The notes beneath the pieces were generated by a model, which saw only the letters and a list, made by a program, of their open reading frames with translations, did no database searches and was not told where the DNA came from. From Mesorhizobium sp. J8 (lineage in GTDB: Bacteria > Pseudomonadota > Alphaproteobacteria > Rhizobiales > Rhizobiaceae): a stretch of 64,000 nucleotides of DNA. The position numbers and the translations under genes are program-made. Positions 19,520-30,579 of this stretch are shown in pieces. The stretch's first letter is position 1; every line of letters begins with the position of its first letter. The stretch covers positions 4,216,001-4,280,000 of the forward strand of contig NZ_AP024109.1 in NCBI RefSeq assembly GCF_016591715.1. The letters run 5' to 3'.

Positions 19520-21570
<2,051 letters not shown>

Positions 21571-21577
21571 GAATGGC

Positions 21578-21678: not shown

Positions 21679-22725
21679 GAGTCTTTCATGTTTTGACGGA
21701 AGCGTATCCGGCGTTTTCGAAGTAGTTCTTGCATTCGGCTGCCTCGATGGCTTCGACGAGGTGGCCGATGTGTCGCCAAGTGTCCTCGACGGTGCGTTTC
21801 TGCGCCTGGCGCATCCAGTGCTTGATCTTGGCGAAGGCCTGCTCGATCGGATTGAGGTCCGGTGAGTAGGGCGGCAGGTACCAGAGCCTGGCGCCAGCGG
21901 CTTTGATCATCTGCCTGATGGCCGCCGACTTATGGCTGCCCAGGTTGTCCATGATGACGATGTCGCCGGGCTTCAGCACGGTGATGAGCTGCTGCTCGAC
22001 ATAGGCGCGGAAGCATTGGCCGTTGATCGGTCCGTCGAAGACGCAAGGTGCCGCGAGCCGATCACAGCGCAGCGCGCCGAGGAAAGTCAGCGTGCGCCAA
22101 TGACCATGTGGAGCCAGGCCGCGCAGCCGCTTGCCCTTCGGCCCCCAGCCGCGCAGGGGAGCCATGTTGGTCTTGATCCAGGTCTCATCGATGAAGACCA
22201 GGCATTGGGGATCGAGGCCGGCCTGCCAGGATCGCCATCGCTGGCGCCGACGGGCAATATCGGCACGTGCCTGCTCAAGGGCGAACAGCGTTTTTTTTGA
22301 AGCTTAGCCCTTCGCGGCGCAGGAACTGCCACACCGCATTGTGCGAGACCTTGACCCCGCGCGCGGCCAACTCGTCCTTCAGCCGATGTAGCGACAGATC
22401 AGAGGTCTGGTTGATCCGCTCCACGATGAAGGCTCGATGCGGTTCCAGAACCCGCTTACGGTGGCCACCCATCTTGCCCGGCGCCACCGAGCCGGTTGCC
22501 TGATGACGCTGCAACAATTTCACGGCTGTCGAATTTGCGATACCGAACCGCTTGGCGGCCGACCGGCGGCTCTCGCCACTCAAAACCGCCGCAACAACCC
22601 GCTCGCGTAAATCATCGGAAAGAGGTCGAACCATCAGATGCTGGCCTCCTATCCAGCCAGCATCTTGAATCACAAATCAGGCCGAGCGGGAATCCCCTAC
22701 GATTCAATCAAGCTATGAAACGCTC
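21679..22725 (-). mobile_element. IS630-family insertion sequence, complete, 1047 bp
   Basis: Terminal inverted repeats begin GAG at each end: 21679-21706 against the complement of 22725-22698, 20 of 28 positions equal, including GAG, TTTCAT, TTGA and CGTA. Both ends are flanked by TA (21677-21678 and 22726-22727), the target duplicated by IS630/Tc1-mariner elements. The interior carries one transposase in two frames. It lies between the FkbM gene and the thi promoter. Confidence 0.9.
21686..22634 (-). CDS. IS630-family transposase split over two frames
   Basis: The first part (22634-22275, 119 residues, start MVRPLSDDLRERV) carries a helix-turn-helix (SRRSAAKRFGIANSTAVKLL). The second part, ending at 21686, carries the DDE catalytic residues in VFIDETW, VIMDNLGSH and LNPIEQAF. 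The join lies at a run of eight A on the coding strand (SFKKN... in the first frame, KKTLFALEQ in the second). A seven-A message would give one continuous protein of 315 residues. Either transcriptional slippage/frameshifting makes the full enzyme or the gene is recently broken. Confidence 0.85.
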
Positions 22726-23477
22726 TAGGTGAAAGCCCAGATGTCCTCGGCCTGGAAGCCTACCTGGTAGCCGGCGGTCTTGAGCTTCACCACGACCTGG
22801 CCGATCTCGGCGGCCGGCAGCGCGCCGACCTCGATCTTGATCATGCCGGGGCGGTAGCGCTTGAGGTCGAGCTGCTCGAACACCATCCAGTCGGCGCCCT
22901 CGCAGTCGACCAGGAAGGCGTCGATATGGGCAATGCCGTTGCGGTCGAGCAGCGCCTGCAAGGTCTCCGACGGCACTTCGATGTCCTTCAGATGCGGCGC
23001 GAACTTGTTGAAGTTGGCATCGGCCTCGCCCCAGGCGTTCTTCCCCGACATCAGATTGGTTTCGGTGACCGATGAGCAGCCGATGAACTCGATCGGCAGT
23101 GTGCCGGCTTCGAGCGCCGCGGCATCGAAGGTGTGGACCGTGATCGTGCCCTTGGTCCTGGTCACCGCCACCGGCTCGATGACGAAGCGCGTCGTATCCG
23201 GGTAATTGGCGCGCAGCCGCTTCTGATTGTAGGGGATCGGCTCGACCAGCACGGCGCGCGCGCCCGCAATGCGGTGCAGCCAGGGCGTCACGTCGTCGAA
23301 CAGCGCGCCGTCGCAGGCGCCGACATTGACCATCTGGAACGGCCGGCCGCCAAAACGTGCTCTGAGCGCCGCCTTGGCCAGGAACTTCGTGCCGTGCAGC
23401 GCCGGCCCGCGGTCGAGCAGGCCGGTCGGCAGACCGAGCGACAGAAGAACGCGCGCGAATGTGGATAGCGAGCTCAT
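22725..23477 (-). CDS. FkbM-family methyltransferase
   Basis: 250 residues from the ATG that overlaps the preceding gene (ATGA). The SAM-binding segment is MVNVGACDGALFDDV, and the FkbM signature acidic block is AFLVDCEGADW. The family O-methylates sugars and polyketides, often in surface polysaccharide clusters. Last gene of the seven-gene operon with DprE1-like and UbiA genes; methylation of the exported sugar is a reasonable guess. The IS630 element is inserted exactly in its TAG stop, yet a TAG is still read, so the protein is unchanged. Confidence 0.85.
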   Translation of the reverse strand: MSSLSTFARVLLSLGLPTGLLDRGPALHGTKFLAKAALRARFGGRPFQMVNVGACDGALFDDVTPWLHRIAGARAVLVEPIPYNQKRLRANYPDTTRFVIEPVAVTRTKGTITVHTFDAAALEAGTLPIEFIGCSSVTETNLMSGKNAWGEADANFNKFAPHLKDIEVPSETLQALLDRNGIAHIDAFLVDCEGADWMVFEQLDLKRYRPGMIKIEVGALPAAEIGQVVVKLKTAGYQVGFQAEDIWAFT

Positions 23478-24706
23478 GACTTGTCTCCGGAAATGACCTG
23501 CAGCGCCGCGCGGCGCCCGCCCTGGCTTGCCGCCGTCCACAGCGCCGTCAGCGGCGCGGCCAGCAGCAGGAAGGGCGGCAGGAGATTGGGGAAGTAGATG
23601 CGGGTGTCGTGGATCGGGAAGACGGCGAATTTCGCCAGCACCCCGAGCACCAGCGCCGCCAGCAGGATGCCGCCGCGCCGGTCGAGCCGGAAGCCGGCAT
23701 GGTGCAAGCCGAACCAGCCGGCCAGTGCCAGCACCGACACGCCGACCCAGCTGTTGACGCTGATCGCGCGCACCAGTGAGGCGACGAAGGCCTTGAGATA
23801 CGCCGCCACCGAGAACGGCGGCTCGAACCCGTCCATATTGTAGTGCTGCTCGATGCTGGAGAACCAAAGATGCGGCCACCAGCCGGGATGCTGGGCCCAA
23901 TGCGAAATGGCGAAATAGGCAATGAAGGATGCCGCGAAGCCGGTTAGAGCGCCCCAAGCCCTCTCGCGGAAAGCGACGAGCAGCACCGCGAAAATGGCGA
24001 GGAAAACGATGTTGTCGGGTCTGACCATGAAGGCCAGGAACAGCACGACCGCCGTCGCCGCCTCGCGCTTGCGCACATAGGTGAAGGTTCCGCCGAGGAA
24101 CAGCGCCGAGCAGAGAAGGTCCGGCGTCGAGGCGCGCGCCGCATCGCCGAAATCGGCCATGATCAGGATCGCGCCGAGGACCGGCGCCAGCGCCAGCGCG
24201 CCTTCCGCGCGCAGCCAGGTGAGCGTGATGGCGCCGAGCAGCAGCACCGAGAATACCTGCACCAGCCGCATCGCCTCGACAGGCGAGACGACATGGCTGA
24301 GGCTGGACAGGATTTCGGCGTAGAGGAACTTGATCCGATACATGCCGAGCAGCGAATGGAAATCGGCGGCATTCTCCGCCATGTGGCTGCGGAAGCCGCC
24401 GCCATCGTCGGTCAGGGTTTTGTAGTCAGCGGCCGACACTCCGGTCTTGACCGTGCTGTAGGCATAGTCGTGCAGAGCCTGCGGATCGGGATAGGCGCCT
24501 TCCTCGGCGATCGCAAGATAGGGCAGCATGTCCCAGTTGGCGTCGGGCATGAACCAGGCGGTCGCGGCGGTAAGCAGGATATAGAGCGAAAACGCAATCG
24601 CCCCGATCGTTGCGGCCCACCGCGCATTAATCCCCTCGCCCCACGCCAGGCCGGCGCCGGTCAGCCGTTCCAGCGGATTGGTCGGAGCGGACGGCCTGGT
24701 CAGCAT
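23474..24706 (-). CDS. Polytopic membrane protein, putative GT-C-type glycosyltransferase
   Basis: 410 residues with about ten hydrophobic segments, the first near residues 32-50. It is followed by a long hydrophilic loop after ANWDMLPYLAIAEEG that places Asp residues outside the membrane, the usual layout of GT-C glycosyltransferases that use lipid-phosphate sugars. A second outside loop (HPGWWPHLWFSSIEQHYN) lies mid-protein. No family motif beyond this layout is certain. In an operon making a polyprenyl-phosphate sugar it is the best candidate for the enzyme that transfers the sugar in the periplasm. Confidence 0.6.
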   Translation of the reverse strand: MLTRPSAPTNPLERLTGAGLAWGEGINARWAATIGAIAFSLYILLTAATAWFMPDANWDMLPYLAIAEEGAYPDPQALHDYAYSTVKTGVSAADYKTLTDDGGGFRSHMAENAADFHSLLGMYRIKFLYAEILSSLSHVVSPVEAMRLVQVFSVLLLGAITLTWLRAEGALALAPVLGAILIMADFGDAARASTPDLLCSALFLGGTFTYVRKREAATAVVLFLAFMVRPDNIVFLAIFAVLLVAFRERAWGALTGFAASFIAYFAISHWAQHPGWWPHLWFSSIEQHYNMDGFEPPFSVAAYLKAFVASLVRAISVNSWVGVSVLALAGWFGLHHAGFRLDRRGGILLAALVLGVLAKFAVFPIHDTRIYFPNLLPPFLLLAAPLTALWTAASQGGRRAALQVISGDKS

Positions 24707-24718
24707 GCTCGGCGACCC

Positions 24719-26194
24719 CTACTTGCCGACCTGGCTTTTCACGAAATCCTTCACGATCGCAACGATGCCGCGCGACAGCAGGCTGTCGAAGGCATCGACG
24801 AAGCGGTCGACATGCTCGGGTCGGCAGATCAGCGGCGGCTCGAGCCGGATGACGTTGCGGTTGTACTCGGTGAAGGCGACGAGCACGTCATAGTCGCGCA
24901 GCAAGAGCGAGCCGACGAAGCCCGAGAGCGAACCCTTCAGCTTGTCGTCGAGCACGCTCACGACCGGGCGCAGCACCATCGGCAGGGTCTGCGAGAAATC
25001 ATGGAACTCAAGCCCGATCATGAAACCCTTGCCGCGCACATCCTTGATGATCTTTGGATATTTTTCCTTCAGCGCCTGCAGCCGCTGCAGCAGGTATTCG
25101 CCGGTCGAGGCAGCGTTGTCGATCAGCCCCTCGTCATAGAGCACGTTGATGCCCTCGATCGCGGTGACGCAGGCCTCGCCCATGCCGCCGAAAGTGGCCA
25201 TGGCATGGATCATCGCCGTCTTCGGCGTGCCATAGGCTTTCATATAGACGTCGCGCCTGGCGATCATGGCGCCGACCGCCGCCTTGCCGGCGCCGAGCGA
25301 CTTGGCCAGCGCCGTCACGTCGGGCACGACGCCGTAGTGCTCGAAGGCGTAGAAGCGGCCGGAGCGGCCATAGCCGCACTGCACCTCGTCGGCGACCCAC
25401 AACACGCCATGTTGATCGCACAGCGCGCGCAGCTTCTGCCAGTACTGCGCCTCTGCCTGGATGATACCCCCACCACCCTGGATGGTTTCCAGCACGATGA
25501 CACCGATCTCAGGATCGCTCTTGAACAGGCGCTCGACGGCGTCGATGTCGGCGAAGGGAACGCGCACGACATTATCCGCCACCTTGAAGTCGGCGCGGTA
25601 GAGCTGCCCGTCGGTGATCGCCAGCACGCCCTTTGTCTTGCCGTGGAAGGAATTCTCCGCATAGACAATCTTCGGCCGCTTCGGGCCTGCGGCGCGCTCG
25701 GCAAGCTTCACCGCCGCTTCCATGGCTTCCGAGCCGGACGAGCCCAGAAACACCATGTCGAGGTCGCCGGGCGAGCATTTGGCGATGTTGTGCGCGAGGG
25801 CCGCCGCATATTGCGACATGAAGGCGATCGCGATCTCCTGGCGCTTCTCCTCCTGGAACTTCTTGCGGGCTTCCAGGATGCGCGGATGGTTGTGGCCAAA
25901 GGCCAGCGAACCGAAGCCGCCGAAGAAGTCGAGGATCTTGCGGCCGTTCTGGTCGATATAGAACATGCCCTCGGCGCGCTCGATCTTGACCTTGTGGAAG
26001 CCGAGCAGCTTCATGAAATGCAACTGCCCGGGATTGAGATGCGCCTTGAACAGGTCGGTGATGCGGGCGACGTCCATCGCCTTGGCCTCTTCGACGCCGA
26101 TCAGGTCGGGCTTGGCGATGGAAGCGGGCGAAAGCGCCGGGGCATCGACCAGCGTGCGCGCGGCTGTCTGTTCCGGCTTGGCCATGACGGTCAT
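24719..26194 (-). CDS. Class-III PLP aminotransferase (aspartate aminotransferase family label)
   Basis: 491 residues from the ATG behind AGGGGAGA. Fold-type I class-III signatures are GSEAMEAAVKLA, FHGKTKGVLA, DEVQCGYGRSGRF, and the PLP lysine in ALAKSLGAG (Lys298). Relatives aminate ketones or aldehydes at the end of ornithine, GABA, or aminoglycoside sugars. The neighbours are the GT-C-like protein (12 bases away) and the SDR (22 bases). In this operon it might aminate a keto-sugar made by the DprE1-like oxidase, but amino acid metabolism is equally possible from sequence alone. Confidence 0.8.
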   Translation of the reverse strand: MTVMAKPEQTAARTLVDAPALSPASIAKPDLIGVEEAKAMDVARITDLFKAHLNPGQLHFMKLLGFHKVKIERAEGMFYIDQNGRKILDFFGGFGSLAFGHNHPRILEARKKFQEEKRQEIAIAFMSQYAAALAHNIAKCSPGDLDMVFLGSSGSEAMEAAVKLAERAAGPKRPKIVYAENSFHGKTKGVLAITDGQLYRADFKVADNVVRVPFADIDAVERLFKSDPEIGVIVLETIQGGGGIIQAEAQYWQKLRALCDQHGVLWVADEVQCGYGRSGRFYAFEHYGVVPDVTALAKSLGAGKAAVGAMIARRDVYMKAYGTPKTAMIHAMATFGGMGEACVTAIEGINVLYDEGLIDNAASTGEYLLQRLQALKEKYPKIIKDVRGKGFMIGLEFHDFSQTLPMVLRPVVSVLDDKLKGSLSGFVGSLLLRDYDVLVAFTEYNRNVIRLEPPLICRPEHVDRFVDAFDSLLSRGIVAIVKDFVKSQVGK

Positions 26195-26216
26195 CTGAAA
26201 AATCTCCCCTTCGCGC

Positions 26217-27224
26217 CTATTCGGCGGGCACATGTTTCGCGGCGACGGCGTGGCCGCCCTTCTTGGCGCGGTATTCGCTGTAGGCGGCGATCAGCATGTC
26301 CTCGTCGCGGTATTGCGGCACCCAGCCGAGCTGGCGCTCTGCCTTGGACACGTCGAGCACGCATTCCTCGTCGGCGATCAGATACTGCTCCGGATCCATG
26401 ATCGGCATGTTCAACAGGTCGAGCAGGTCGAGCGTGCGCTTGACCGCCCAGCCGGGCGTCGGCAGCAGGATCGACTTCGAGCCGGCATGGCGAATGAGAT
26501 CGCCGAGCAGCTTCTTCACCGGCGGCGGATTGAGCGAGCCGAGATTATAGGCTTCGTTCGGCACGCCGGCTTTCCAGGCAGCGCGGGCGGCTTCGGCGCA
26601 GTCGAACACCGAGATGAACTGATAGGGGTTCCTGCCCGAGCCGATCATCGGCACCGGAAGATTCCAGTCGATCAGCTTGAACAGCTTTTCCAGGATGCCG
26701 AGCCGTCCGGGCCCAATGATCAAACGCGGCCTGAACAGCGAGATCGACATGCCGCGCTTGCGCCATTCGGCGGCGAGCTCCTCGGTCTTCAGCTTCGACA
26801 GGCCATACTCGCCGAGCGGCGAGACCGGATGGTCCTCGGTCATCGGCAGCACCACAGTGTGGCCGTAGATCATGTCGGTCGTATAGTGGACCAGCTTCGA
26901 GGCGCCGGCCTTGTCCATCGCCTGGATGATGTGCTCGGTGCCGTGGAAATTCACCGGGAAGAAGAAGTCGTGCCGCTTGGCGCGCACCTGGATCGGCGAG
27001 AGCATCTTGGCCGACAGATTGTAGACCACGTCGTCGGCCCTGAGCCCGACCGCCGCGACCGAAGCCGGATCGGTGACATCGCATGTGATGAAGCGCATCG
27101 AACGGTAGTGCGGCAGGTCACTCTTGACGATATCGGCGATGACGACAGTCTCGCCATCGGCGACGAGCTTGGGGGCAAGGTGACGGCCCACGAATCCGTC
27201 GCCTCCGAAAATCACATGTCTCAT
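26217..27224 (-). CDS. NAD-dependent epimerase/dehydratase (extended SDR)
   Basis: 335 residues from the ATG overlapping the small membrane-protein stop (ATGA). The Rossmann motif GGDGFVG is at 7-13, and the catalytic YGLSK tetrad residues are in PLGEYGLSKLKTEE. The sugar-nucleotide pocket resembles GalE/RmlB-like proteins (LFRPRLIIGPGR). It could supply a sugar or reduce a keto-sugar lipid. Unlike DprE2, which is a classical short SDR of about 254 residues, this is of the extended type. Confidence 0.85.
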   Translation of the reverse strand: MRHVIFGGDGFVGRHLAPKLVADGETVVIADIVKSDLPHYRSMRFITCDVTDPASVAAVGLRADDVVYNLSAKMLSPIQVRAKRHDFFFPVNFHGTEHIIQAMDKAGASKLVHYTTDMIYGHTVVLPMTEDHPVSPLGEYGLSKLKTEELAAEWRKRGMSISLFRPRLIIGPGRLGILEKLFKLIDWNLPVPMIGSGRNPYQFISVFDCAEAARAAWKAGVPNEAYNLGSLNPPPVKKLLGDLIRHAGSKSILLPTPGWAVKRTLDLLDLLNMPIMDPEQYLIADEECVLDVSKAERQLGWVPQYRDEDMLIAAYSEYRAKKGGHAVAAKHVPAE

Positions 27225-27670
27225 CGAACGACCTCGCTTGTGCCGATCTTGTCGGGATTGATGGATGCGGTCCGCTCCTCGTGTCCCCGCCCGCCCATTT
27301 CTCTGCCACTCTGCGCGATCAGGATCGTGCCGACGCAGATGCAGGCGATACCGGCGATGCGCCAGCCATTGAGGTCCTCGCGGAAGACGAAATAGGCAAA
27401 GATCGCCACGGCGACATAGGCGAGGCTGAGGAATGGATAGGCGAAGCTGAGCTCGACCTTGGACAGGACGTAGAGATGCGATGCCATCGAGATGACGAAG
27501 GTGCACAGCCCCAGGAACACCCAGGGGCTGAACACGATCTGCAAGAGCTTGACGAGCGGATTGACGCCTTCGAAGGAGATCGGCCCCATCGACATCATGC
27601 CTTGCTTCAGCATCAGCTGCGCGGCGGCATTGGTCATGACCGTGAAGAGAATGAAGATTATGTATTTCAT
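27221..27670 (-). CDS. Small EamA/SMR-like membrane protein, putative lipid-sugar flippase
   Basis: 149 residues from ATG, with a GTG three codons upstream as alternative (the upstream GGGGCGGGG serves either). Four hydrophobic helices: residues 4-22, 44-60, about 65-85 and 90-120. The segment SFAYPFLSLAYVAVAIFAYF is typical of the EmrE/ArnE-like superfamily. ArnE/ArnF-type proteins flip undecaprenyl-phosphate aminoarabinose. Here, next to polyprenyl-pentose genes, the same task is suggested. The C-terminal 25 residues are hydrophilic. Confidence 0.7.
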   Translation of the reverse strand: MKYIIFILFTVMTNAAAQLMLKQGMMSMGPISFEGVNPLVKLLQIVFSPWVFLGLCTFVISMASHLYVLSKVELSFAYPFLSLAYVAVAIFAYFVFREDLNGWRIAGIACICVGTILIAQSGREMGGRGHEERTASINPDKIGTSEVVR

Positions 27671-27793
27671 TGTTGCCACCCCGCCCCTTGTGCGGTCCTA
27701 TTACAAACCTGCAAATATTTCGTGAAGCCGCGATAGTGTTTTGAGTAACCCAGGGCGTAACTCTTTATTTACCATGATTTATTCGACTTTTAT

Positions 27794-29149
27794 CTATTCA
27801 GCGGCTTCGGCTCTCCCTTGTCCAATCTCGAGTCTCTTGGCGGTACGCGTCCAGAAGCCCGATATGAAAGCCGGGTCGCGAAGCGCCTCCAGCCGCCGCC
27901 ATTGCGGGAACGACGCGGCGAATGTCTCAGGCCCCATCCGGGCGTCCTTGTAGGGGTTCACCGCGCCGCCCGCCTCGACCGTGATGCGATCGAGCTCGGC
28001 GAGCAGCCGCAACGTCCTTTCGCCCCGGTTGGGGAAATCGAGCGTCAGCGTGTAGCCGGGCCGCGGGAAGGACAGCAGCGCCGGCGAGCGGACATCGCCG
28101 AAGCGCTTGAGCACTGTCAGGAACGATCCCTGCCTTGCCCGCCGCGCCGCATCGAGCAGTGCCGGCACGATGCGGCGGGCCTTCTCCTCCGGCACCACGC
28201 TTTGGTGCTGGAAAAGCCCGCGCGGCCCGTAGAGCCGGTTCCAGTCGCGGACGCCGTCGAGCGGAAAGAAGAAGGCCTGGTAGCCAGCTTGGCGCGGAAT
28301 CGCGGACTTGCCCTTTTTCCAGCGGTAGGCTGCGTTGAAGGCGGTGAGGAAGGGCCGGTTCAGCACATTGAACGGCGGCTGCACCGGCACGGAAAGCCGG
28401 CTGCCGGCATTCGCCGCGGCGTGCGAGCCGTGCTCGGCGTGATTGCCGGTGAACAAAAGCCCTCGCCCGCGCCCATGGCCGCCTGCAAGCTGGTCGATCC
28501 AGGCGACGGCATATTCGTTGGCCTGGTCGGCCGCCTCGGCAAGATCGAAGAATTCACCGAGATCGCGAAACCGCGTCGCCCTTTCCATGATGTCGAGCGA
28601 CGGCACCCGCATCAGCCTGATGGACGCTGAAAGGATCAGCCCGGTCAGCCCCATGCCGCCGATCGTCGCCCCGAACAGGCGGACATTGTCGGTCGCCGAG
28701 CAGCGATAGGTCCGGCCGTCGGACCGAAGCAGCGTCAAAGCCTCGACATGGCAGCCGAAGGTGCCGCGCCGATGATGGTTCTTGCCGTGAACGTCGTTGG
28801 CGATCGCGCCGCCCAGCGTCACGAACTGCGTGCCTGGAACCACGGCCGGAAAGAAGCCGTAGGGCGCGGCATAGGCGATGATGTCGCAAAGGAGCGTGCC
28901 GGCATCGGCTTCGAGCACGCCGGTCTCGGCGTTGAAGGAACGGATACGGTTGAACGGCCGCATGTCGACCACCATGCCGGCATCGTTCTGGCAACTGTCA
29001 CCATAGGAGCGGCCATTGCCGTAGCCGAGCAACGATCCCGGACTGGCCTTGCCGTTCTTCAGAATCGCGATCGCCTCTTCCGCCGGGATCGCCTTGCGCG
29101 CCGGTGGGGTCGCCAGTCCGAAGCTGCCGAAGCGCTCCTGCCCCATCAC
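27794..29149 (-). CDS. DprE1-like FAD-dependent polyprenylphosphoryl-ribose 2'-oxidase
   Basis: 451 residues from GTG (an ATG follows directly). VAO-type FAD domain with GYGNGRSYGD at 42-51 and HGKNHH at 121-126. Comparison from memory with mycobacterial DprE1 shows conserved active-site residues: His121 (His132), Gln314/Gln316, Lys348 in FLTVLKRFG, and Lys401 in PYKDAR (Lys418). The cysteine hit by benzothiazinones (Cys387) corresponds to Thr369. The enzyme oxidises C2' of polyprenyl-phosphoribose to a keto sugar. It is coupled to the UbiA-HAD gene by overlap. I rate the family as very likely, the exact sugar as inferred. Confidence 0.85.
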   Translation of the reverse strand: MMGQERFGSFGLATPPARKAIPAEEAIAILKNGKASPGSLLGYGNGRSYGDSCQNDAGMVVDMRPFNRIRSFNAETGVLEADAGTLLCDIIAYAAPYGFFPAVVPGTQFVTLGGAIANDVHGKNHHRRGTFGCHVEALTLLRSDGRTYRCSATDNVRLFGATIGGMGLTGLILSASIRLMRVPSLDIMERATRFRDLGEFFDLAEAADQANEYAVAWIDQLAGGHGRGRGLLFTGNHAEHGSHAAANAGSRLSVPVQPPFNVLNRPFLTAFNAAYRWKKGKSAIPRQAGYQAFFFPLDGVRDWNRLYGPRGLFQHQSVVPEEKARRIVPALLDAARRARQGSFLTVLKRFGDVRSPALLSFPRPGYTLTLDFPNRGERTLRLLAELDRITVEAGGAVNPYKDARMGPETFAASFPQWRRLEALRDPAFISGFWTRTAKRLEIGQGRAEAAE

Positions 29150-30579
29150 CAGCCCCCGGCGACGAGGAAGACCGCGCCGATCGCGACGACGATCTGGCTG
29201 CGCCAGTCGCGGATGATGAAGACGACCGGATCGTCATGCATCTCGTCGCGCCGGGCGAGGATCCAGACACGCATCGTGAGGTAGAGCACGATCGGCGCCA
29301 GCGGCCATATCAGCCACGGATGCGGGTAAAGCTCACGCACCGCCGGGCTGTCCATATAGAGCGCGAGCACCAGCGCCGAGGAGAAGGCCGACGCCATGCC
29401 GGCCTGGGCGACGATCTCCTGGTCCTCGGTCTGATAGCCGCGGCCGGCGATGCGCTCGCCCGGCGGGATGGCCGTGGTGCGCAATTCGACGAAGCGCTTC
29501 ACCAGCGCCAGCGACAGGAAGAAGAAGATCGAGAAGGCAAGCAGCCAGAAGGAAACGTCGACGCCGGTGGCGGCGGCGCCCGCCAGCACGCGGATCGTGT
29601 AGAGGCCCGCAAGCGTCAGCACATCGACCAGGAGCATGCGCTTGAACGACAGCGAATAGGCGGTGGTGACGACCAAGTAGCCTAAAAGCACGCCAAGGAA
29701 TTCGATCGGCAGGAAGAGGCTGGCGGCAAGGCCGATCGCAAGCAGCGCGGCGATGGCCCCGAGCCCGAACGGGATCGACAATGCGCCGCTGGCGAAAGGC
29801 CGGTTGCGCTTGGTCGGATGCTTGCGGTCGAGCGCGAGGTCGAAGAAATCGTTGAGGATGTAGATGGCGGACGCCACCGCGCTGAAGGAGACGAACGCCA
29901 GCAGGCATTCCCAGATCATATTGGGATTGAAATATTCGTGCGACAGCACCATCGGCACGGCGATCAGCGCGTTCTTCAGCCACTGATGCATGCGCAGCAT
30001 CTTGATGTAGGTCCGAAACGTCGGCTTCGGCGCCGGCATGGCCTCGGCTTGATGGGCCGCCTGCCAGCGCCGGGCCACGCGGTCGGGCGCCACGACCAGC
30101 GCGCTGCGCGCGGCGTCGAACACTTTGAGGTCGTGGCGACTGTTGCCGGCATAGTCGAAGCCAGCATCGCCATAAGCGGCGACAAGGGCCGCGCATTTCT
30201 TGGCCGACGTCATGTTGTGCGGCCCGTCGGTCGCCAGCACATGATCGAAAATGCCGAGATGTGCCGCGATCGCCTCGGCGAACTTGCGCGGCGTTCCCGT
30301 CGCCAGCACGATCTTGCGGCCCTCCCGATGCTCGGCGCGCAACCGCTCAAGCAGGTCCTGGCGGTAAGGCAGCGAGGCCGGGTCAATGTCGACTCGCCTG
30401 GCGATCTCCCGCTTCAGCCGGGCCGGTCCGCCGGCCAGCCAGAAGGGCAGGAGAAAGACATAGAGCGGGTTCTTCTTGAGCAGGATGAACAAACCTTCCC
30501 ACAGAAGGTCCGTTGCAATCAGCGTTCCGTCGAGATCGACCGCAAGCGGAATTGCGTTCCTGTCCGACCTCGCGTCCAT
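29146..30579 (-). CDS. HAD phosphatase-UbiA fusion, putative polyprenyl-phosphate phosphoribosyltransferase
   Basis: 477 residues from the ATG after GGGGCAGGA; a TTG 20 codons upstream is less likely. Residues 10-165 form a HAD domain with VDLDGT (Asp15, Asp17), LATGT and GNSRHD. Residues 190-477 form a UbiA membrane domain with eight to nine helices and the Mg-binding NDFFDLALD (Asn243, Asp244, Asp247, Asp251). In mycobacteria a UbiA protein (Rv3806c) makes decaprenyl-phosphoryl-5-phosphoribose and a separate phosphatase removes the 5-phosphate. The fusion may do both. First gene of the operon. Confidence 0.82.
   Translation of the reverse strand: MDARSDRNAIPLAVDLDGTLIATDLLWEGLFILLKKNPLYVFLLPFWLAGGPARLKREIARRVDIDPASLPYRQDLLERLRAEHREGRKIVLATGTPRKFAEAIAAHLGIFDHVLATDGPHNMTSAKKCAALVAAYGDAGFDYAGNSRHDLKVFDAARSALVVAPDRVARRWQAAHQAEAMPAPKPTFRTYIKMLRMHQWLKNALIAVPMVLSHEYFNPNMIWECLLAFVSFSAVASAIYILNDFFDLALDRKHPTKRNRPFASGALSIPFGLGAIAALLAIGLAASLFLPIEFLGVLLGYLVVTTAYSLSFKRMLLVDVLTLAGLYTIRVLAGAAATGVDVSFWLLAFSIFFFLSLALVKRFVELRTTAIPPGERIAGRGYQTEDQEIVAQAGMASAFSSALVLALYMDSPAVRELYPHPWLIWPLAPIVLYLTMRVWILARRDEMHDDPVVFIIRDWRSQIVVAIGAVFLVAGGW

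Follow-up and report, generated by a model that had tools for sequence, protein, structure and literature searches.

Described systems that assemble a pentose on polyprenyl phosphate frame our analysis of a seven-gene operon in Mesorhizobium sp. J8, which lies in a 64,000-nucleotide stretch of DNA (contig NZ_AP024109.1, positions 4,216,001 to 4,280,000) that we call the window. In their 2024 paper, Kelly et al. report biochemical evidence that polyprenyl-phosphate ribofuranose is the product of a HAD-UbiA protein and that a GT-C glycosyltransferase completes the route; for Citrobacter youngae O1 and O2 a MATE flippase is inferred there, the short-chain dehydrogenase/reductase (SDR) ORF13 of O2 switches the side chain to xylofuranose, and DprE1/DprE2 homologues mark arabinofuranose systems (PMC11127046). 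Rhizobia have an arabinose version for Nod factors, noeCHOP (PMC5080398, PMC2443382), and in that operon noeC, noeH and noeO account for three of the four steps to the arabinose donor, with a transferase in addition (PMC5080398). The mycobacterial decaprenyl-phosphoarabinose (DPA) pathway comprises Rv3806c, Rv3807c, DprE1, DprE2, Rv3789 and Aft/Emb. We presume a gene-by-gene correspondence between noeC, noeH and noeO and individual donor steps. The Arn system, which supplies 4-amino-4-deoxy-L-arabinose (L-Ara4N) for lipid A modification, makes a pyranose from UDP-glucuronic acid with the DegT-type aminotransferase ArnB, and ArnC.

Like the three-component pentofuranose side-chain systems of C. 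youngae O1 and O2, the operon encodes a predicted HAD-UbiA synthase, flippase and GT-C protein in one locus (the flippase by family resemblance only), together with an SDR, the kind of gene that as the epimerase ORF13 switches the sugar there; the flippase is of the MATE type in the passages on C. youngae and ArnF-like here (PMC11127046). The word 'aminotransferase' is absent from the main text of that paper, whereas our operon contains one (PMC11127046). With the mycobacterial DPA pathway the operon shares a UbiA phosphoribosyltransferase, DprE1, a small flippase and a GT-C; unlike that pathway, it has no DprE2, has a HAD-domain phosphatase, adds an aminotransferase and has an ArnF-like flippase. 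Two features of the DPA arabinose variant, a DprE2 reductase and a GtrA/Rv3789-type flippase in the locus, were both missing here. The logic of an aminopentose on polyprenyl phosphate, with an ArnE/F flippase and the GT-C ArnT, recalls Arn, although here the sugar would begin as a ribofuranose from phosphoribosyl pyrophosphate and be aminated on the lipid; the proposed route is best read as a furanose analogue of the Arn system. For the seven operon proteins, the families listed (for the aminotransferase, the best 25 of 69) did not include ArnA, ArnB or ArnC, a negative that covers the operon and not the remainder of the genome. As with noeCHOP/noeCNHOP of Azorhizobium and Rhizobium IRBG74, rhizobial arabinose-donor homologues would feed a secreted glycan; the noe genes sit with nod genes, and the passages describing them mention no aminotransferase (PMC5080398, PMC2443382). 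The initial annotation named noe as the nearest rhizobial parallel, which holds in the sense of a classical relative and not of a system of the same kind, since the aminotransferase here appears to replace DprE2. Because the operon is also present in Pseudaminobacter and Nitratireductor, both among the related loci, a Nod-factor gene set is not suggested.

We consider it reasonably probable that the operon makes a polyprenyl-phosphate-linked amino-pentofuranose that is added to a surface glycan; the predicted product is a 2-amino-2-deoxypentofuranose, with the position of the amine inferred. With a shade less assurance, and just on the favourable side of even, we propose that a pyridoxal phosphate (PLP)-dependent aminotransferase has replaced DprE2, giving a new branch in which a lipid-linked 2-keto-pentofuranose becomes a positively charged amino-pentofuranose donor with its own flippase and exchangeable GT-Cs. 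A DprE1-type pathway beyond mycobacteria, highlighted when the operon was first annotated, is already in print for Citrobacter, Pseudomonas and Nod factors (PMC11127046, PMC5080398); the swap of DprE2 for an aminotransferase is the new part. A search of open-licence PMC full text found no paper combining these genes, a weak negative because subscription journals are missing and chemical names vary, and for bacterial aminopentofuranoses the same kind of search returned only two unrelated-looking entries, PMC6780248 and a synthetic-chemistry review (PMC9615045), again a weak negative.

Results

The operon and its conservation

The operon consists of seven minus-strand open reading frames (ORFs) running from 30579 to 22725 in window numbering, with intergenic gaps, in transcription order, of -4, 114, -4, 22, 12 and -4 bases. 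Protein families were assigned from Pfam and NCBIfam models.

29146..30579, minus strand: HAD-UbiA fusion (P0001), 477 residues, predicted polyprenyl-phosphate phosphoribosyltransferase plus 5'-phosphatase
27794..29149, minus strand: DprE1-like flavin adenine dinucleotide (FAD) oxidase (P0002), 451 residues, predicted polyprenyl-phosphate-ribofuranose 2-oxidase
27221..27679, minus strand: EamA/ArnE-ArnF-like small membrane protein (P0003), 152 residues, predicted flippase
26217..27224, minus strand: extended SDR (P0004), 335 residues, predicted epimerase or other accessory
24719..26194, minus strand: class-III aminotransferase AT3 (P0005), 491 residues, predicted to aminate the DprE1 ketone
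23474..24706, minus strand: GT-C glycosyltransferase (P0006), polytopic membrane protein of 410 residues, predicted periplasmic aminopentosyl transferase
22725..23477, minus strand: FkbM methyltransferase (P0007), 250 residues, lineage-specific accessory

The seven genes are real at these coordinates and are under purifying selection, with dN/dS of 0.04-0.24 across them in comparisons with up to five loci (four for FkbM). The genome is 6.69 Mb, and its closest named relatives are Mesorhizobium, including M. plurifarium. As a close set we took the best 80 of 462 relatives from a contig search with the aminotransferase as query, so that AT3 is present in them by construction. In all 80 the genes found have the order and strand of the window, which argues against a chance arrangement; the content, order, single strand and short gaps or overlaps of the initial annotation are borne out (largest gap 114 bases). 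HAD-UbiA was found in 78 of these loci, DprE1 in 79, the EamA protein in 79 and the SDR in 80, the missing core genes belonging to L019 and L035, where contigs end. In 75/80 loci there is a GT-C of the P0006 type, which in seven has 32-39% identity; FkbM occurs in 61/80, in three as a short remnant.

AT3 travels with the module and excludes DprE2 in the genomes sampled

AT3 was found in 21 of 397 genomes of the order. Its weakest match had an E value of 6e-219 at 66% identity, although matches to 1e-80 were requested, and AT3 therefore forms a discrete ortholog group. Beyond the order only genome G205 carries it (with the window genome, 2/289 genomes of the class at E 1e-100); in the phylum it was found in 7/398 genomes at E 1e-90, all seven within the order, so that none was added outside. 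HAD-UbiA (E ≤ 1e-30) accompanies AT3 in 21/21 genomes, against 104/397 overall (hypergeometric 1e-13). The DprE2-type reductase (NF005489, E ≤ 1e-60) occurs in 38/397 genomes, 35 of which have HAD-UbiA and 28 of which score above the curated cut-off. No genome holds both AT3 and DprE2 (0/21 at E 1e-60), where 7.1 would be expected among the 104 HAD-UbiA genomes (hypergeometric 5e-5). When up to 50 candidates per genome were scored in a second search, the DprE2 cut-off was passed in 0/22 AT3 genomes and in 11/19 others; in the window genome none of 50 candidates exceeded the NF005489 cut-off, the best reaching E 3.7e-23.

Nineteen loci with HAD-UbiA and no AT3 served for comparison; they are mostly the best-scoring of 83 such genomes and not a random draw. 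Ten have DprE1 in the stretch and nine do not; of the ten, nine have DprE2 and eight GtrA. In G371 HAD-UbiA lies apart from a DprE1-DprE2 pair elsewhere in the genome. The six classical reductases scanned (244-251 residues) all exceed the 267-bit cut-off of PRK07102 (NF005489) and reach 157-204 bits against the DprE2 model NF053786, whose cut-off is 250; the GtrA proteins scanned (4/4) are NF037976. By contrast, two DprE2 and two GtrA queries found nothing in 17 AT3 loci from beyond the genus (L086, L115-L130), where UbiA, DprE1 and the ArnF-like gene are each present in 16 and the SDR in 14. Gene order and strand vary among these 17, the window's GT-C type is present in four, and in the seventeenth (genome G559) HAD-UbiA and DprE1 lie on a different contig (L180). 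The five core genes are also found, in window order, on a named plasmid of Neorhizobium sp. SOG26. Within the genus, AT3 and HAD-UbiA occur together in five of nine genomes sampled and neither occurs in the remaining four, where DprE1 had no match at E 1e-20 in a search with no positive control.

In this sample AT3 is associated with the module and excludes DprE2. That the genes are merely unlinked neighbours was rejected, as the association survives shuffled gene order. AT3 appears to stand in for DprE2, judging from these patterns of gene content, and not to be an extra on the arabinose route; the earlier view that the aminotransferase and the methyltransferase both lie outside that pathway therefore needs amending for the aminotransferase.

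Synthase and oxidase

P0001 scores 646 bits with the HAD-UbiA model NF006088, above cut-off; the next best are decaprenyl-phosphate phosphoribosyltransferase models at 109-154 bits, below their cut-offs (NF008977, DPPR synthase, 154), and ubiquinone and heme O models reach at most 26 bits. Its best solved match is decaprenyl-phosphate phosphoribosyltransferase (PDB 8j8j, E 1.1e-24; also 8j8k). UbiA residues N243, D244, D247, D251, K257, R260 and R330 are identical in 17 distant, 78 close and nine classical rows. P0001 is accordingly placed with the phosphoribosyltransferases and not with the menaquinone/heme enzymes whose company would have undone the original pathway call, and is predicted to be a UbiA-family polyprenyl-phosphate phosphoribosyltransferase. 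In the UbiA tree the AT3 label does not follow a single clade (four changes), and UbiA therefore seems exchangeable; the tree omits L124, L127 and L163, which have a stop in translation, and L119 has neither UbiA nor DprE1 in its stretch. The UbiA partners in L086, L127 and L130 match P0001 only from residues 192, 75 and 192. The HAD domain seems missing or cut in these three, in which case a separate phosphatase would be needed.

P0002 matches DprE1 in the PDB at E 1.6e-66 and scores 324 bits against NF053785, below the 500-bit equivalog cut-off, which all six other DprE1s scanned also miss. Equivalents of Mycobacterium tuberculosis Y60, H132, K134, Q334, Q336, K367 and K418, in a residue numbering that we assume to be correct, are present in every aligned row bar one gap. 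The oxidase thus falls with DprE1, as first proposed, and is predicted to be a DprE1 oxidase with its catalytic residues. The equivalent of Cys387 is Thr in 15/17 distant and 79/79 close AT3-linked DprE1s and Ala in 9/9 classical ones. A 100/100 branch separates the AT3-linked DprE1s (25 of 26 rows) and that of G330 from six DprE2-linked ones. The twenty-sixth row, G205, pairs AT3 with a classical-looking DprE1 that groups with the classical proteins on a long branch, its place unsure; it scores 410 bits against NF053785, where three AT3-linked proteins reach 301-324 and three classical ones 377-411. The DprE1 tree omits L122, L166, L167 and L176 (stop in translation) and L119 (no gene in the stretch). 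The L017 GT-C copy and the L045 DprE1 copy also have a stop in translation, for which a broken gene, a sequencing error and a frame artefact are alike possible.

Aminotransferase, flippase and transferase

AT3 scores 290 bits with PF00202, and Lys298 (presumably the PLP lysine, by position), Asp269 and Arg450 are invariant in 17/17 distant and 80/80 close rows. Its closest solved relatives are putrescine aminotransferase and 4ppm, which we take to be PigE. The predicted structure is of moderate confidence (predicted local distance difference test score, pLDDT, 73), and no argument is based on it. Compared with putrescine aminotransferase, AT3 has about 22 extra residues after Asp399, a stretch that is longer in PigE; in AT3 it might contact lipid.

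P0003 matches EamA/ArnF and not GtrA among Pfam and NCBIfam models (PF00892, 32.6 bits; ArnF NF002816, 50.5 bits, and ArnE, 33.5 bits, both below cut-off), ArnF is the best model for 4/4 distant homologues, and the protein is a predicted flippase. P0006 matched no family in Pfam or NCBIfam. Structure comparison vindicated its first label, 'GT-C-like', which has no family support: the first 47 rows are all GT-C-fold proteins, and D59, which follows helix 11-52, is identical in 21/21 rows. The structural model of P0006 thus shows a GT-C fold, and an acidic residue is conserved beyond the first membrane helix. In five close loci lacking the window's GT-C type, a 578-677-residue protein with 9-10 spans (hydropathy count) lies on the opposite strand, adjacent to AT3 or near it. 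Proteins of 578-677 residues with 7-10 predicted spans lie beside or near AT3 in L072, L074, L081, L082, L085, L115 and L124, and the four compared with Pfam (L072, L074, L115, L124) matched no family. These membrane proteins are possibly alternative or replacement GT-C transferases.

Accessory and neighbouring elements

P0007 scores 58.6 bits with PF05050. None of the 17 AT3 loci beyond the genus gave an FkbM match; after the GT-C gene, L048, L052 and L056 hold FkbM remnants of 26%, 14% and 16% of the query. Given these remnants and its absence from 19/80 close loci, the methyltransferase gene is being lost.

Downstream thiamine genes and an upstream MscS-type gene were rejected as partners, neither being matched in the 17 loci, although most of the 80 close loci, those of Pseudaminobacter and Nitratireductor among them, retain the MscS-type gene upstream. 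An IS630-family element (DDE_3) at 21686-22673 (minus strand), with two ORFs in different frames, separates the FkbM gene from thiC. None of the 80 related loci matched its DDE part at E 1e-8, and the insertion is therefore probably recent. A thiamine pyrophosphate (TPP) riboswitch, RF00059, lies at 21461-21577 (minus strand, 74 bits) ahead of thiC, and was the sole match in an Rfam scan of the window at gathering score.

Discussion

The pathway that we envision begins with P0001, which would make polyprenyl-phosphate-linked ribofuranose as the starting lipid sugar. The DprE1-like oxidase, with its key residues intact, would convert this to the 2-keto lipid sugar, and AT3 would aminate the 2-ketone where DprE2 would reduce it to arabinose, a step suggested by the exclusion of DprE2. 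Fold and family suggest that the ArnF-like P0003 would flip the donor and that P0006 would transfer the sugar in the periplasm. The SDR and FkbM may adjust the sugar, perhaps by epimerisation and methylation, and these are the least certain steps.

Several observations weigh against this pathway. Characterised putrescine aminotransferase and PigE act on aldehydes or primary amines, not on ring ketones. In the oxidase, V, F and T stand where M. tuberculosis has S228, Y314 and N385, though in AT3-linked and classical groups alike. The co-occurrence statistics ignore phylogeny: by genus the exclusion is weaker (P ~0.012; one shared AT3/DprE2 genus among HAD-UbiA genera against 4.7 expected). Genera g235 and g296 contain both AT3 and DprE2 kinds in separate species, but the DprE2 genome in g296, G460, has no HAD-UbiA match, nor do the DprE2 genomes G325 and G407. 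P0006 resembles ArnT among others, with ArnT tied with ALG12 and further GT-Cs, and sugar specificity cannot be read from a fold. The amino-pentose scheme leaves the SDR unexplained, and where DprE2 is missing the ketone could be reduced by another, unrelated SDR.

The strongest alternative, which we judge unlikely, is a classical polyprenyl-phosphate-arabinose route in which the operon's own SDR takes the place of DprE2 and the aminotransferase acts elsewhere, for example on the acceptor. P0004 scores 114.6 bits with PF01370 (Epimerase), conserves GxxGxxG and YxxxK (YxxxK in 79/80 close loci, the remaining one truncated) and is matched in 80/80 related loci, and DprE2 is itself an SDR. However, the AT3 genomes G446, G468 and G652 had no match to this SDR at E 1e-20 and have no DprE2 either, so AT3 and not the SDR probably takes the DprE1 ketone. 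Genome G330, with an AT3-type HAD-UbiA, DprE1, ArnF-like gene and SDR and no close AT3 (best 35% identity), still has DprE2, on another contig, of which an 18 kb stretch was examined and contained none of the remaining queried genes. Together with the SDR-free genomes this implies that the SDR seems neither to substitute for DprE2 in G330 nor to be needed beside AT3, and a plain arabinose operon was demoted on these grounds. The SDR step is possibly an epimerisation, by analogy with ORF13.

Slightly less probable again is chemistry at C5, in which the oxidase would turn the 5-hydroxyl freed by HAD into an aldehyde and the aminotransferase would aminate it; the product would be a 5-amino-5-deoxypentofuranose lipid, and DprE2 would again be unneeded. 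In favour of this, terminal aldehydes are the substrates of AT3's closest characterised class-III relatives, and the AT3-linked DprE1s, a clade of their own, carry Thr at a position that is Ala in the classical proteins. Because the loss of DprE2 fits amination at C5 and at C2 equally well, the case against C5 rests on other evidence: the DprE1 residues checked as essential are all kept, G205 combines AT3 with a DprE1 that looks classical (if of unsure place), and in G330, whose DprE1 is of the AT3 clade, a DprE2 lies elsewhere in the genome, which suggests that the clade may still make the 2-keto sugar. A hopanoid side-chain set, in which AT3 would be like HpnO (a class-III aminotransferase on a ribose-derived aldehyde) and P0004 like the extended SDR HpnA (58 bits, cut-off 368), is very improbable and was rejected, since squalene-hopene cyclase was unmatched in 13/15 AT3 genomes tested, the window genome included (matches in G559 and G205; in a check of the model, 1/14 named controls matched, Bacillus subtilis).

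Together, DprE1 and DprE2 are known to act as an epimerase made up of two enzymes. If amination at C2, the reading that we prefer, is true, the 2-keto lipid sugar between them would be a branch point. An undescribed surface amino sugar would then be predicted in many Mesorhizobium species, and DprE1 beside AT3, without DprE2, would serve as a genomic marker for the amino-pentose route. More speculatively, a cationic sugar of this kind might matter for peptide resistance or plant contact.

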